Below, in pieces: positions 1,520 to 22,335 of a DNA stretch of 22,627 bases. Origin of the DNA: Candidatus Alcyoniella australis (GTDB lineage Bacteria; Lernaellota; Lernaellaia; JAVCCG01; Alcyoniellaceae); the NCBI GenBank assembly GCA_030765605.1, contig JAVCCG010000006.1, positions 1-22,627 on the forward strand. The letters are read 5' to 3'. Below the pieces are notes generated by a model. The model was given only the letters and a program-made list of their open reading frames with translations, did no database searches and was not told where the DNA came from. Numbering within the stretch: the first letter of the stretch is position 1; each line of letters begins with the position of its first letter. The translations under genes were made by a program, and so were the position numbers.

Positions 1520-3109
1520 TTATAGCCCGCAGCACTCCGAGCTGTCGCTGCTCGAGCTTGAGCTGCTGCCCAGGCCTACGCAGTCCTCGATCTCGGAGCA
1601 GGAATCAGCGGCGATGATGCATTCGTAGACCGACTGCCTGAAGAGTTCGCACAGATCAAGACACTCGCTTATGGTATTGATGCCGAGGTCACCTGAAAGC
1701 GAGCATTGGTCGATGCGCTCGCACATTGTCTGGCAGTCGCGGTCCTCCGAATCGTCGTCGTCGATGTCATCATCGTCGTCGTCACCGGGCGAGCCGTTGT
1801 TGAGAAAGCTGCTCAGGCCTGCGGAGTAGGCGCCGGCGAAGTTGCCGTAGTAGTCCGTGCCGCTCATGTGGCTGCACGAGGCGTCCCCGGCCGAGAGCGT
1901 GCCCACCACCTTGGCCGAAGAGCTGAGCAGGGACGAGCCCGAGCTGCCGCCCTCGGTCGAGCCTTCGCGGTAGTGCACCTCGGTGAAGTCGGAGTAGGTG
2001 CCCACCACGTTGCCGATCGACAGTCGCAAATACGCGCCCGCCGGATGGTGCAGCACGCTGGCCGCCGAGCCGCTGCCGACCTGGCTGGCGCTCCAACCCA
2101 AATAGGCAGCGCCCGCGGGCGGCGAGCTGTCGAGCATCAGCAGGGTCATGTCGTAAGTGCTGTTGGTCCACTTCAGGTCCGAGCCCGAGGAATGGGGTAG
2201 CGAGTAGAAATTGGGCGCCGAGCCGTTGCACACCGATGTGTTGTAGTTCCAGGTGACGACCAGGGAGTTGGCTTCGGACGCGCCGGAGATGCAGTGATTG
2301 GCGGTGATGAACCACGGTTGATAGGTAAGTGCGGTATCGGACAACAGCGTACCGGTGCAGCTATAAGTGCCGCCCCCGCTCTCGAAGGCCATCTGGCCCA
2401 CCGCGCTCTTGAGCGGTACCCAGTCGCTGTGACATGTAGGGTCCAAGTAGCACCACGATTCCTTTTCGCCCGAATCCAAGCCCGCGTCGAACTCGACGAT
2501 GCCGTGGCTGATCCAGTCGATCCGGAACTGCGGCGGCGTATCCAAGTCGTTGACCAGCTCGATGTGCAGCACGTCGCCCTGGATCAGCGGGCCCCAGAAC
2601 TGGTCAGCGCCGTCGGTCCTGAACTGCTCCAACGTTTGCACGGTCCCGACGCTCGGATCGCCGTAGACCATTACCTGCGACGCGAGGTTCGCGTTCAGAC
2701 CGCTGAAGTGCGGCCGGATGAAAGTCGCGCCCTCGGAGCGGATCGCCACGCGCCACGAGCGCGCGCCGTCGGCCGCCTCGAGCTGCTCCCAGGTGGCGGG
2801 ATCGATCTGCGGCACGGGCACGCTCACGCCGATCAGCTCGCGCTTGGCGTCCGGGTTGTCCGCGCGCAGCCGCTGCAACGCGTCGGCCACAGTCGCCGGG
2901 TCGATCGACACGGTGGACGATTGCGGCGCAACGCTGCCCAGCACCATGCCCGGGCAAGTCAGTGGGGCGTTGGGAAGCACGGCGTCCTGCGTGATCGGCG
3001 AGAAGGTCGTCTGCGTCTGCGCAGCCTCGTCAGGGGCCGCGTAGGTGAAGGCGACCAGCAACAGTGCGAGCAGCAGAACCCCCGCGATAGTCGGGAATCG
3101 GAATCTCAT
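1520..3109 (-). CDS. Secreted trypsin-like serine protease (lysyl-endopeptidase-like) with Asp-rich stalk and Cys-rich tail
   Basis: 529 residues. A signal peptide spans about 1-24 (RFRF, a Leu/Val-rich core, then AA). The protease domain shows the chymotrypsin-fold triad: H272 in TANHC, D320 in TYDMTLL and S390 in TEGGSSGSS; the last motif closely matches Achromobacter-type lysyl endopeptidases. Residues 25-220 look like a propeptide or N-terminal domain. After the protease come an Asp stalk (about 443-455), a Cys-rich module with spaced C-x3-C pairs (459-510), a Ser run and a terminal ECCGL. The start is ATG behind TAGGAGGT with about 8 bases spacing. A promoter lies at 3175-3204. Expected role: cleavage of external proteins, with the stalk and tail probably for surface attachment (inference). 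Substrate specificity (Lys or otherwise) is not proved by sequence. Confidence 0.88.
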   Translation of the reverse strand: MRFRFPTIAGVLLLALLLVAFTYAAPDEAAQTQTTFSPITQDAVLPNAPLTCPGMVLGSVAPQSSTVSIDPATVADALQRLRADNPDAKRELIGVSVPVPQIDPATWEQLEAADGARSWRVAIRSEGATFIRPHFSGLNANLASQVMVYGDPSVGTVQTLEQFRTDGADQFWGPLIQGDVLHIELVNDLDTPPQFRIDWISHGIVEFDAGLDSGEKESWCYLDPTCHSDWVPLKSAVGQMAFESGGGTYSCTGTLLSDTALTYQPWFITANHCISGASEANSLVVTWNYNTSVCNGSAPNFYSLPHSSGSDLKWTNSTYDMTLLMLDSSPPAGAAYLGWSASQVGSGSAASVLHHPAGAYLRLSIGNVVGTYSDFTEVHYREGSTEGGSSGSSLLSSSAKVVGTLSAGDASCSHMSGTDYYGNFAGAYSAGLSSFLNNGSPGDDDDDDIDDDDSEDRDCQTMCERIDQCSLSGDLGINTISECLDLCELFRQSVYECIIAADSCSEIEDCVGLGSSSSSSSDSSECCGL

Positions 3110-3754: not shown

Positions 3755-4624
3755 TCAGGGCAGAAACTCCAGTTCGGCCGAGGTCGGCAGTTGGATGTTG
3801 GGGAAGATCTCGTTGATCTCGAGAACCATCACGTCGGCCACGAGCTGGTGGCCGCGCTCGTTGATGTGGCGCACGTCGGTCATGATCTGCCAGATGTAGA
3901 CCGGCTCGCCGTTGTAACGCACCTTGCCCAGCAGCACCTGGGCGTAATACCAGTCCAGGTCCACCAGGTGGTATGCAGGGTAGGCCGCAACCTCCTCGGC
4001 GATGGTGCGGTTGACCGCCTGCTTGTCGCCGTCGTAGTTGATCATTGCCAGCACCGGGATGTTGCACCAGAGCATCAGCGCGTTGGGCGCCTCGTTGGTG
4101 GAGGTGGTCAGCATCTGGCGCACGCGCAGGCGGAAGATCGTCAGCGAAGGATCGTCGTCGAGCAGGTGGAAGAAGCTGCCCACGTCGATGAACAGCGTGG
4201 CGCTCTCGCGCAGCTTCCAGGGGTGCTTGTATTCGACCACCCAGAACTGCGGATCGGGCGCGTCGCACAGCGCGAGCTGCGGCCAGGCCTGGTTGACCAG
4301 CTTGCCGTAGTAGTACTGGGTGTACTCGCCCAGACCGTAGGGCCCGCCCTCGTTGTCGTAGACCGTGTCGCTGGCGCCCATGGTGTTCAGCTCGCCCAGC
4401 AGGTTGATCTCCTGCCAGCTCAGGGTCTCGCAGTAGCCCGGGGGCAGGTCGTCGTCATCGCCCGTGTCGTCGTCCGCCTGATCGTCGTCGTCGCCCGTGT
4501 CGTCGTCGCCTGTGGCGTCGTCGTCGATCGCGTCGTCGTCATCGCCGCCTGATTCGCAGGACAGTGCGAACACCAGCAACAGCGCGAGCAGCGTTGCCAA
4601 CCATGCAACACGGAGGTTTTTCAC
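3755..4624 (-). CDS. Lipoprotein with Asp-rich stalk and SGNH/GDSL-hydrolase-like domain
   Basis: 289 residues from a GTG start, preceded by GGAGGT with 5 bases spacing. Residues 1-22 are a lipoprotein signal and the lipobox ends LSC, with C23 the lipidated Cys. Residues 28-59 are an Asp-rich stalk (blocks of DDDD split by A/I/T/G). The remaining domain has a GAS motif near residue 85 after a hydrophobic strand (possible block I nucleophile) and a clear C-terminal D-x-x-H block (DVRHINERGH, about 250-259), as in SGNH hydrolases that cut ester or acyl bonds. The oxyanion Gly and Asn blocks are not obvious, so activity is uncertain. It is probably displayed on a membrane surface. A TATAAT box at 4661-4666 suggests its own promoter. 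Confidence 0.7.
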   Translation of the reverse strand: MKNLRVAWLATLLALLLVFALSCESGGDDDDAIDDDATGDDDTGDDDDQADDDTGDDDDLPPGYCETLSWQEINLLGELNTMGASDTVYDNEGGPYGLGEYTQYYYGKLVNQAWPQLALCDAPDPQFWVVEYKHPWKLRESATLFIDVGSFFHLLDDDPSLTIFRLRVRQMLTTSTNEAPNALMLWCNIPVLAMINYDGDKQAVNRTIAEEVAAYPAYHLVDLDWYYAQVLLGKVRYNGEPVYIWQIMTDVRHINERGHQLVADVMVLEINEIFPNIQLPTSAELEFLP

Positions 4625-10336: not shown

Positions 10337-11302
10337 ATGCGTTTTATTCAATTGATGATTCTCCTGGCCGCGACAGCGTTGCTTTGCGTTCCGGCGATGG
10401 CCGCGGCCGACGGTCCGCCGCTGAACATCGGCCATCGCGGCACCGGGTCCAACGGCCTGGGCAATCCCTTTCCCGAGAACACGATCCCGAGCTTCGAGCA
10501 GGCGTTCGCCGAGGGCGCGGACATGATCGAGCTCGACGTGACCCTCAGCTTTGATGGCCAGGTGGTGGTGATTCACGACGACACGTTGGACCGCACAACC
10601 GATTGCAGCGGCTGTGTGGATGCGCTGACCCTTGAGCAGATCCAGCTGTGCGACGCTGCCGTGGGCACACCGCTGGAGGGCAGCGGCGTGACCGTGCCCA
10701 CGTTGTATGAGGTGTTCGACGCGATCGGCGACCTGGGCCTGGTCAACGTTGAAATAAAATCCGGCTCGTGCAGCGGGATTCCCGCGGCCGACCTGGCCGC
10801 TGCCGTGGACCAGGTGCTCGGCGATGTGGACGCGCCCGCGGGCACGATCATCTCCTGCTTCAGCGCCGGTGTGCTTAGTCAGATGGAGCTGCTCGATCCC
10901 GAGCATTTTACCGGCCTGCTGTTCAACGAGCTGGACAACGGCCCGTCCATTGAGCAGGCCCACGACCTGGGGTTCGACGCGGTGCATCCGTTTCACCTCA
11001 CGCTCAACGCCGACCAAGTAACCTGGGCCCATTCGATGGACCTCAGCGTCAACCCCTGGACCATCGACGACCGGCTGCGGATGGAGGCGTTGTTTGGCAT
11101 GGACGTGGACGGGATCATCACCGACGCGCCGGACCTGCTTGCCGCGGCCATCGACGACTGGCCCTGGCCTCCGGCTGACGACGATGACGACGATGACGAC
11201 ATCGACGACGATGACGACATTGATGACGATGATGCGGGCGATGACGACGACGCGCCCGTTGGCGACGACGATGATGACGACGACTCGGGCTGCTGCGGAT
11301 AA
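10337..11302 (+). CDS. Secreted glycerophosphodiester phosphodiesterase with Asp-rich C-terminal stalk ending SGCCG
   Basis: 321 residues. A signal peptide covers about 1-23 (core LMILLAATALLCVP, AMA site). The GDPD domain has all hallmarks: GHRG (H33, R34), PENT (46-49), the metal-ligand pair E65 and D67 in IELDV, and HDDTLDRTT (80-88) with the second catalytic His; VEIK follows. It hydrolyses glycerophosphodiesters to glycerol-3-phosphate and an alcohol. After about residue 277 the chain becomes an Asp stalk and stops at SGCCG. There is no lipobox, so if attached it is through the tail. Shine-Dalgarno GGAGG, 7 bases before ATG. Confidence 0.9.
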   Translation: MRFIQLMILLAATALLCVPAMAAADGPPLNIGHRGTGSNGLGNPFPENTIPSFEQAFAEGADMIELDVTLSFDGQVVVIHDDTLDRTTDCSGCVDALTLEQIQLCDAAVGTPLEGSGVTVPTLYEVFDAIGDLGLVNVEIKSGSCSGIPAADLAAAVDQVLGDVDAPAGTIISCFSAGVLSQMELLDPEHFTGLLFNELDNGPSIEQAHDLGFDAVHPFHLTLNADQVTWAHSMDLSVNPWTIDDRLRMEALFGMDVDGIITDAPDLLAAAIDDWPWPPADDDDDDDDIDDDDDIDDDDAGDDDDAPVGDDDDDDDSGCCG

Positions 11303-20760: not shown

Positions 20761-20790
20761 TTGACATTTGCAGCTCAAAATATCAATTAT
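20761..20790 (+). promoter_or_regulatory. Possible sigma70 promoter at the start of the AT-rich region
   Basis: TTGACA (20761-20766) is perfect; after 18 bases comes AATTAT (20785-20790), four of six matches. It would drive transcription through the tmRNA-like 3' fragment. AT-rich sequence makes chance matches likely. Confidence 0.3.
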
Positions 20791-20821
20791 TAATATGGTT
20801 CATTGAAACACAAGAAACACT

Positions 20822-20854
20822 CGGACGGGGGTTCGACTCCGGTTTCCTCCACCA
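20822..20854 (+). ncRNA. tmRNA (ssrA) 3'-end remnant, probable attachment-site scar
   Basis: CGGACGGGGGTTCGACTCC followed by ...CTCCACCA reproduces the 3' end of tmRNA genes, including the GGAC lead typical of tmRNA. The spacing is exact: T-loop TTCGACT, 5 + 7 bases, discriminator A, CCA. However the T-stem GGGGG/CCGGT is mispaired at two positions, and no matching 5' acceptor strand (GGAGGAA) or tag reading frame lies in the preceding 125 bases. So this is a fragment, the usual leftover of an integrase that targets ssrA. The intact gene is outside the window. Confidence 0.5.
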
Positions 20855-21189
20855 GTTTTCTTTTTTGAACCGGTTCTCTCTGTCTTTCGGATTAGCACGA
20901 GGGTCTTTTGCAACGCCACGTACAAGCGCTTGAAGTCAACGGTTTTTCCAGGGTTGGGACGGCTGCCGGCTCGCGCAATCTTATGGACGCGGTTGCGCCC
21001 CCAAGCACCCATTTTGCCCCCCCCAATAGCCCTTTCTCCGTCTCTTTCTCTGAATCTTTTGGACTACCCCCACCTCGTCCTAAAGATGAGAGTGCTTATA
21101 AATCAAGTAGTTATAAAGACAGTTTTTCGGAGAGTTCGACTCCCGCGACGATTAGCATGGAACTCTTTATTACGAGAAAGGGGTCTATA
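20855..21189. other. Gene-free stretch of mixed composition between tmRNA fragment and TIR gene
   Basis: I see no supported gene. Contents: a T-rich run then a perfect palindrome GAACCGGTTC (20867-20876), moderately GC-rich sequence to about 21010, an eight-C run near 21017-21024, then AT-rich sequence. A GGAG-7 bases-CTCC hairpin at about 21129-21143 contains GTTCGACTCC (21134-21143), the same 10-mer as the tmRNA T-arm at 20831-20840. The frame of the next gene is open through here from TTG 20908 but the residues (Pro/Ser-rich, no hydrophobic core) look non-coding. Confidence 0.5.
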
Positions 21190-22335
21190 ATGCCGCCAAA
21201 AGCCTTTTTTAGTTGCCGCTTCGATAACGACAGCAAAGAAATAATAAACTATTTCAAGATAATTGCCAAATCATCTAATGTTCTGCCGATACTAGCTGAT
21301 CATGTTGAGTCAAAACCACTGGCGCAAAAGGTCCTTGAAACTATCAAGGACGCAGATTGCACAGTAGCGATAATTACTCCTTCAACTATTTCAAATCATG
21401 TAACAAGCGCTTGGATTAATCAAGAGGTTGGAATGTCGTATGCCGCTAATATTCCGGTTATTGCTTTTGTGGAAGATACAATACAAGATCTTGGCATTAT
21501 TCCAATTATTACTGAATATATCACATTTAACAGAAACAAACTGCACTTGATTCTCGACAAAGCCCTTTCCTTTTTTTCAGGTATCGCGGCAAAAATTACA
21601 TCAAAAAGCATTCAGTGCCTATATGACAATACTAATTGTAAAGAAAAACTAGACAAATATGCCGACATGTACGATACCCGTCTGTTCGTTAATCTTCCTG
21701 CCAAGCAGAAAATTGCCAAATGTGTGGTTGAAAAATTTATTTCGGATTCAACAAAAGGCATATTGTTGGACTCCGGTTCGGTGACATATGTGATTGCAGA
21801 TGAACTTATAAATAGTGGTTTACAAATTCCAATAGTAACAAATAATATCGCCATCATATCAAAGATGAAGGATATCCTTCATTACCCTGTGCATATCCTT
21901 CCAGGCGAACTTGATAGTCGAACCTTAGCTGTCGGTGGAAAAGATACGGCGGAAGTTGCAAGACAATACTTGATGGGAGAAATGAATATAACTATTGATA
22001 TTGCATTTTTAGCTGCAAATTCTATCGATCCAAATTTCGGACTAAGCGCTGACGCCACCCCCTTTGTCGACTTTCGTACGGCGATTCTAAGGAATGCACG
22101 AAACGTAGTAGTAGTTCTACAAGGAGAGAAGTTACTCAAGCCGGTTTTGAATCCAATAGTGGCTCAAGATGAATGGCGCGAGATATTTCACAGACGATCC
22201 GTAGAATCGTCTATGTGGATTGTGTGCCATACTCTTGTTGAACACTACGGGCAAGCTATGGAGAATAGATATATGAAATGCATGGAGTGTTTTAAGCAGG
22301 AATTACCGGATGGCCACGTGATTGAAATTTGTTAA
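21190..22335 (+). CDS. TIR-like domain fused to DeoR-type sugar-phosphate sensor domain
   Basis: 381 residues from ATG 21190 (AAGGGG 8 bases upstream). Residues 3-130 are TIR-like: first strand KAFFSCRF, then DADCTVAIITPSTIS (54-68), SAWINQEVGMSYA (73-85) with E79 at the place of the NADase Glu, and IPVIAFVED. Residues 188-320 follow the DeoR C-terminal sensor (DeoRC, ISOCOT fold): LLDSGSVTYVIAD (192-204; DeoR has DAGSTT), PIVTNN (214-219), ILPGELDSRTLAVGG (236-250) and FLAANSIDPNFGLSAD (273-288). No helix-turn-helix. Inference: a phosphosugar- or nucleotide-like ligand controls a TIR enzyme. The gene is AT-rich, unlike all neighbours on its left, and no partner gene is visible between it and the IS element. 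TIR activity is not proved by sequence. Confidence 0.8.
   Translation: MPPKAFFSCRFDNDSKEIINYFKIIAKSSNVLPILADHVESKPLAQKVLETIKDADCTVAIITPSTISNHVTSAWINQEVGMSYAANIPVIAFVEDTIQDLGIIPIITEYITFNRNKLHLILDKALSFFSGIAAKITSKSIQCLYDNTNCKEKLDKYADMYDTRLFVNLPAKQKIAKCVVEKFISDSTKGILLDSGSVTYVIADELINSGLQIPIVTNNIAIISKMKDILHYPVHILPGELDSRTLAVGGKDTAEVARQYLMGEMNITIDIAFLAANSIDPNFGLSADATPFVDFRTAILRNARNVVVVLQGEKLLKPVLNPIVAQDEWREIFHRRSVESSMWIVCHTLVEHYGQAMENRYMKCMECFKQELPDGHVIEIC

Follow-up and report, generated by a model that had tools for sequence, protein, structure and literature searches.

A TIR-like domain joined to a DeoR-type sensor domain in Candidatus Alcyoniella australis: a candidate ligand-gated TIR enzyme

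A contig of Candidatus Alcyoniella australis (JAVCCG010000006.1) carries at its end a gene for a 381-residue protein in which a divergent TIR domain probably stands where a DeoR regulator would have its DNA-binding region, followed by a complete DeoR-type sensor domain (hereafter TIR-DeoRC). TIR domains are of an immune type, often cleaving NAD or producing an alarm signal, and TIR effectors fused to a sensor are already known; DeoRC as the sensor is new, and no paper pairing TIR with DeoR, DeoRC or ISOCOT was found in the open-licence literature. Most likely the protein is a TIR enzyme, gated by a ligand, in a Thoeris-like defense, with DeoRC serving as sensor or oligomerizer. The initial annotation of the window (the whole stretch of DNA analyzed, 22,627 nucleotides) had already proposed that a TIR domain replaces the helix-turn-helix (HTH) of a DeoR regulator, and family, profile and structure comparisons, together with a full-length relative in another phylum, support this. 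The motifs that it quoted are present in the translation: WINQE (residues 75–79), DSGSVT (194–199), VTNN (216–219), PGELDSRT (238–245) and FLAANSIDPNFGL (273–285). The features discussed below are collected in Table 1.

Table 1. Positions of TIR-DeoRC features in the window and of 8xMP genes at other loci (L numbers).
Feature	Position	Strand	Basis
Shine-Dalgarno-like AAAGGGG, 6 nt 5' of the ATG	21177..21183	+	Sequence
TIR-DeoRC protein, 381 aa	21190..22335	+	Open reading frame, translation, full-length 47% identical relative
Probable TIR domain, residues 1–137	21190..21600	+	Weak Pfam TIR_2/ThsB_TIR matches, TIR_2 genomic relatives, profile scores
Glu79 codon in W75-I-N-Q-E79, putative TIR catalytic glutamate	21424..21426	+	Same residue in five TIR proteins
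DeoR C-terminal sensor domain (DeoRC, RpiA/eIF2B-like fold), residues 160–381	21667..22332	+	Pfam, model
Presumed phosphate-binding loop D194-S-G-S-V-T199 (D-x-G-T-T-T in DeoR regulators)	21769..21786	+	D194, G196 and T199 invariant
Lys314 codon, DeoR-family lysine	22129..22131	+	Invariant with three canonical DeoR/GlpR proteins
IS3-type transposase C-terminal end (LLKRWRREYNTFRPHSSLGYRPPAPEAI...), cut by the contig end	22463..22627	-	Translation
8xMP beside ThsB-like TIR genes	L028:2510-3438, L031:2570-3510, L032:2463-3450		
8xMP beside ThsB-like TIR genes	L034:2483-3558, L035:2557-3633, L037-L039, L050-L054		

The DeoRC Sensor Half

Pfam DeoRC (PF00455) matches the window protein with an E-value of 1.2e-18 and 68.1 bits (cut-off 31.8 bits), and the relative from the other phylum scores 60.3. 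NCBIfam DeoR/GlpR models match the C-terminal half of the window protein as well, far under their full-length cut-offs. The AlphaFold model is mostly confident in the DeoRC part (ten-residue means 52–91), which residues 1–163 are not, and its best PDB match is E. coli DeoR (7l6l, residues 74–252; VIA-align Z 16.0, rmsd 2.8, 176 residues). Next come eIF2B, ribose-1,5-bisphosphate isomerase and ribose-5-phosphate isomerase, and sugar phosphates are bound by several of these proteins. An alignment with three canonical DeoR/GlpR proteins shows D194, G196, T199, T217, N218, G239, G250 and K314 to be common to all four sequences. The HTH of those three proteins is without counterpart in the N-terminus of the window protein, and no HTH family matched it in Pfam at E-values up to 10. 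By family match and predicted structure, then, residues from about 160 to 381 are a complete DeoR sensor domain lacking the DNA-binding part. The earlier placement of a DeoR sensor at residues 185–345 was right as to the fold and too short in extent, as the domain begins near residue 160 and reaches the C-terminus.

TIR enzymes act only when assembled and DeoR-type proteins are oligomers, so the DeoRC half might be an oligomerization scaffold for TIR and nothing else, infection being sensed by another partner or by TIR directly. Conservation of the pocket is weak proof of ligand binding with just two members of the architecture known. The residues listed above are nevertheless kept as in true DeoR regulators, which would be needless for a scaffold, and we judge this explanation unlikely.

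A Probable Divergent TIR Domain

Direct Pfam matches to the N-terminal part all fall below cut-off: Nuc_deoxyrib_tr at 22.4 bits (E 1.4e-4; cut-off 28.8 bits), TIR_2 at 18.9 bits (E 2.2e-3; cut-off 28 bits) and ThsB_TIR at 15.2 bits (E 0.03). The stronger evidence comes through relatives. A two-sequence profile of the domain, run against 386 genomes, found six further proteins, and four of the five that were scanned exceeded the TIR_2 cut-off (E 5e-17 to 3e-22), the fifth lying just under it. F6, S8, I52, W75 and E79 are invariant across an alignment with five TIR proteins, so that the motifs F-x-S, in the first strand, and W-x3-E are kept; E79 is also invariant with the ThsB-like TIR partners of 8xMP described below. 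Comparison by hhalign with three of the five TIR proteins gave 97.9% probability over 124 columns. A profile of all five gave the window domain 47.2 bits, whereas the best-scoring of 2,000 shuffles reached 10.0; the test is not wholly independent, the five having first been picked by similarity to this domain, but they count as TIR proteins in their own right. A seven-sequence TIR profile matches several TIR structures, among them Cat1 (the best PDB match), AbTIR and SARM1, and its alignment to Cat1 and the others spans both F-x-S and W-x3-E. The strands and helices are predicted in an order that a TIR fold would allow. Structure prediction followed by a fold search, as the initial annotation had proposed for both halves, succeeded with DeoRC and not with TIR: AlphaFold models of the TIR part lie mostly below pLDDT 50 (domain model mean 45) and gave no significant structure match. 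For the poor model of this part alone the best Foldseek E-value was 0.46, and SARM1 and plant TIRs appeared as non-significant matches. Residues 1–137 are, on these sequence comparisons, a probable divergent TIR domain, well supported through relatives.

The direct Pfam ranking raises the question of whether the N-terminal part is instead a nucleoside 2-deoxyribosyltransferase-like N-glycosidase, which would make the protein a metabolically regulated nucleotide-salvage enzyme with no immune TIR. In Pfam this part matches Nuc_deoxyrib_tr best, and deoxyribosyltransferases are among its PDB phmmer matches (E 0.018 and 0.26). Deoxyribosyltransferases are, however, close to the TIR/DrHyd/SLOG class, and because of this relatedness such cross-matches are to be expected. 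The family also scores below cut-off in both members, at only 14.3 bits in the relative, which scores higher with TIR_2; the domain's relatives in genomes belong to TIR_2, and their matches to Nuc_deoxyrib_tr are far weaker or absent; and F-x-S and W-x3-E are TIR motifs. A salvage enzyme therefore appears quite improbable, and a divergent TIR domain is the reading retained here. Chance motif matching was also considered as a source of the two-domain assignment and is ruled out by the Pfam DeoRC score, the structural match to DeoR and the TIR profile score against shuffles.

Among the proteins closest to the TIR part, a recurrent layout is a short TIR protein that ends in one likely membrane helix (L016:1420-1899, L017:1402-1902, L018:1369-1851, and L021:1492-1968).

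Relatives and Distribution

A search for the architecture and its neighborhoods, suggested in the initial annotation, yielded one TIR-DeoRC relative, in Candidatus Abyssobacteria bacterium SURF_17, where it lies beside a gene of the 8xMP membrane-protein family. This organism belongs to another phylum, and its protein is 47% identical to the window protein over residues 4–380, with the motif residues of both domains invariant between the two, W75 and E79 included. Since a full-length relative exists in another phylum, the architecture is no artefact. These two proteins are the known members. A genome-contig pattern scan of 84,980 species gave SURF_17 only, among the matches listed. No further member was found in six other genomes of the window's phylum, in 385 genomes around SURF_17 (a sample largely that which yielded SURF_17) or in additional samples of 10, 392, and 82 genomes; in this sampling, large phyla other than that of genome G248 were thinly covered. 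The viral contigs, phages, and plasmids searched contained no other TIR-DeoRC; plasmid matches were rejected as relatives, being ordinary DeoR regulators.

The 8xMP Neighbor and Its Linkage to TIR Genes

In SURF_17 the 8xMP gene (PF24838, E 2.5e-40) lies about 300 nt upstream of the TIR-DeoRC gene on the same strand, and this is the one genome in which the two are seen together. It is the nearest recognized upstream gene and the only 8xMP in that genome. The neighbors compared with Pfam are this gene, a downstream fragment of lactate racemase (LarA_C, the C-terminal part) and one gene of no recognized family. The lactate racemase C-terminal domain stands alone (L009:8382-8864); an insertion that deleted the N-terminal part may have left it behind as a scar.

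8xMP loci were sampled from plasmids and genomes and scanned for TIR reading frames with two profiles, one of them seeded by five of the TIR proteins beside 8xMP, all five of which exceed the Pfam ThsB_TIR cut-off. With SURF_17 left out, a same-strand TIR gene adjoins 8xMP at 13 of the 22 loci; one of the 13 (G315) is from the same family as the SURF_17 organism. The TIR gene usually comes first, overlapping 8xMP or a few bases away, a tight layout from which the SURF_17 order (8xMP first, with its longer gap) departs. Such loci occur in cyanobacteria, proteobacteria, actinobacteria, and haloarchaea. Genes for type I restriction, a PIN protein and a caspase-family protein are among the neighbors at 8xMP loci. 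At six more distant 8xMP matches (L041-L046) no TIR was found within about 1.5 kb. The literature search on 8xMP, in open-licence papers, returned unrelated work only.

Because the relative adjoins a member of a family often found beside TIR genes, a role of TIR-DeoRC in defense or signaling gains support. By analogy, the arrangement in SURF_17 suggests a pair of TIR signal and membrane effector, like the predicted TIR-SLATT pairs.

Two observations concern 8xMP in its own right. TIR-8xMP is a candidate two-gene module of TIR signal and membrane effector, present in bacteria and haloarchaea, and the 8xMP proteins tested gave no significant match in PADLOC 2023. At a locus without TIR on a Rhizobium leguminosarum plasmid (L030:1-3435), an NB-ARC gene directly precedes 8xMP, in the usual place of the TIR gene.

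Proposed Mechanism and Comparison With Known Systems

For TIR-DeoRC we infer enzymatic activity, a ligand, control through oligomerization, a membrane effect and phage defense. We lean slightly toward a ligand-controlled TIR enzyme whose assembly is set by the DeoRC ligand, which would cleave NAD+ upon infection or stress and in SURF_17 would act on 8xMP. DeoRC would bind a phosphorylated sugar or else a nucleotide that carries ribose phosphate, and would thereby determine how the protein assembles; should this ligand change during infection or stress, the TIR domains would be brought together; and the assembled domains would cleave NAD+ using the putative catalytic Glu79. The outcome would be NAD+ depletion or an ADP-ribose-type signal, and in SURF_17 the TIR-made signal may act on the adjoining 8xMP membrane protein.

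Several known systems offer parts of this scheme. TIR, DrHyd and SLOG form one class acting on the N-glycosidic bonds of nucleotides (PMC9503650). Cat1, of type III CRISPR-Cas, degrades NAD+ and consists of a TIR with a ligand-sensing CARF domain attached (PMC12162218); like TIR-DeoRC it unites TIR and a small-molecule sensor in one protein, although the sensor here is DeoRC and no CRISPR genes were noticed here. The likeness to Thoeris (ThsB TIR with a ThsA effector) is by analogy that of a TIR enzyme likely making an ADP-ribose-type signal. The TIR of type II Thoeris produces His-ADPR, and this signal drives an effector that disrupts membranes (PMC12948488); the SURF_17 gene likewise adjoins a membrane-protein gene. 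Unlike Thoeris, TIR-DeoRC carries its own sensor domain, and neither a SIR2-SLOG nor a macro-domain ThsA was seen among the Pfam-tested neighbors in SURF_17; PADLOC gave no ThsB-type TIR match for the window protein and at best 0.038 for the relative. TIR genes also adjoin SLATT genes, small membrane effectors by prediction, which are also predicted to respond to an ADP-ribose derivative (PMC9503650). The SURF_17 partner differs from these in being 8xMP, without a SLATT family match, and its TIR in being fused to DeoRC. With DeoR/GlpR regulators, finally, TIR-DeoRC has in common the complete C-terminal sensor and its motif residues, and it differs from them in having TIR where the DNA-binding HTH would stand.

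SARM1 is a TIR NADase under the control of a fused metabolite-sensing domain, and senses NMN/NAD+ through ARM repeats. TIR-DeoRC resembles it in joining TIR to a sensor, and departs from it in that the sensor is a DeoRC of sugar-phosphate type and not ARM repeats. A tentative and somewhat doubtful extension of the comparison would make TIR-DeoRC a prokaryotic SARM1 counterpart, in which DeoRC, reading a phosphorylated sugar or NAD-derived metabolite, directly gates a TIR NADase or signal synthase that acts on an octameric 8xMP, in a metabolite-triggered anti-phage cell-death circuit not yet described.

The infection cue of bacterial TIR proteins is known in few cases only. Here TIR is joined to a sugar-phosphate-sensing fold that is well understood, so that a modest set of metabolites would suffice to test the trigger directly; a DeoRC-gated TIR would suggest that bacterial immunity can take its cue straight from the central metabolism of sugars or NAD. 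The repeated pairing of TIR with 8xMP, in turn, marks out 8xMP as a candidate family of effectors for TIR signals.

Setting of the Gene in Candidatus Alcyoniella australis

The open reading frame runs from an ATG at 21190 to a stop at 22333–22335. A pseudogene or frameshifted reading was considered and is ruled out by the intact frame and the full-length relative. The gene has a GC content of 0.39 and a GC3 of 0.36, against GC3 values of 0.80–0.92 in four upstream host genes, and the remaining genes of the window are GC-rich; given this AT-rich composition, the gene was probably acquired horizontally. The contig terminates 292 bp past the gene, and an IS3-type transposase remnant, 127 bp away, has a 77% identical stretch in an IS3-like open reading frame elsewhere in the same genome. 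No defense genes were recognized among the other genes of the window, and no 8xMP gene was found in the genome (4.3 Mb, 98% complete).

It could be argued that this copy is an orphan, acquired but lacking its partner, or is silent, and that a working system exists only at the SURF_17 locus. The AT-rich composition, the position at a contig end close to an IS3 remnant and the lack of 8xMP in a nearly complete genome all fit such a history. Against it, the frame is intact, a Shine-Dalgarno-like site is present and every motif residue is kept, and on balance we hold an orphan or silent gene to be rather unlikely.

The AT-rich stretch at 20770–21189, between a host-like glycosyltransferase gene and the TIR-DeoRC gene, has no recognized gene; an open frame enters upstream of TIR-DeoRC from 20908 and has no family match. 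Elsewhere in the window, long Asp-rich stretches (e.g., DDDDDDD) recur in the predicted proteins at 1520–3109, 3755–4624, and 10337–11302.
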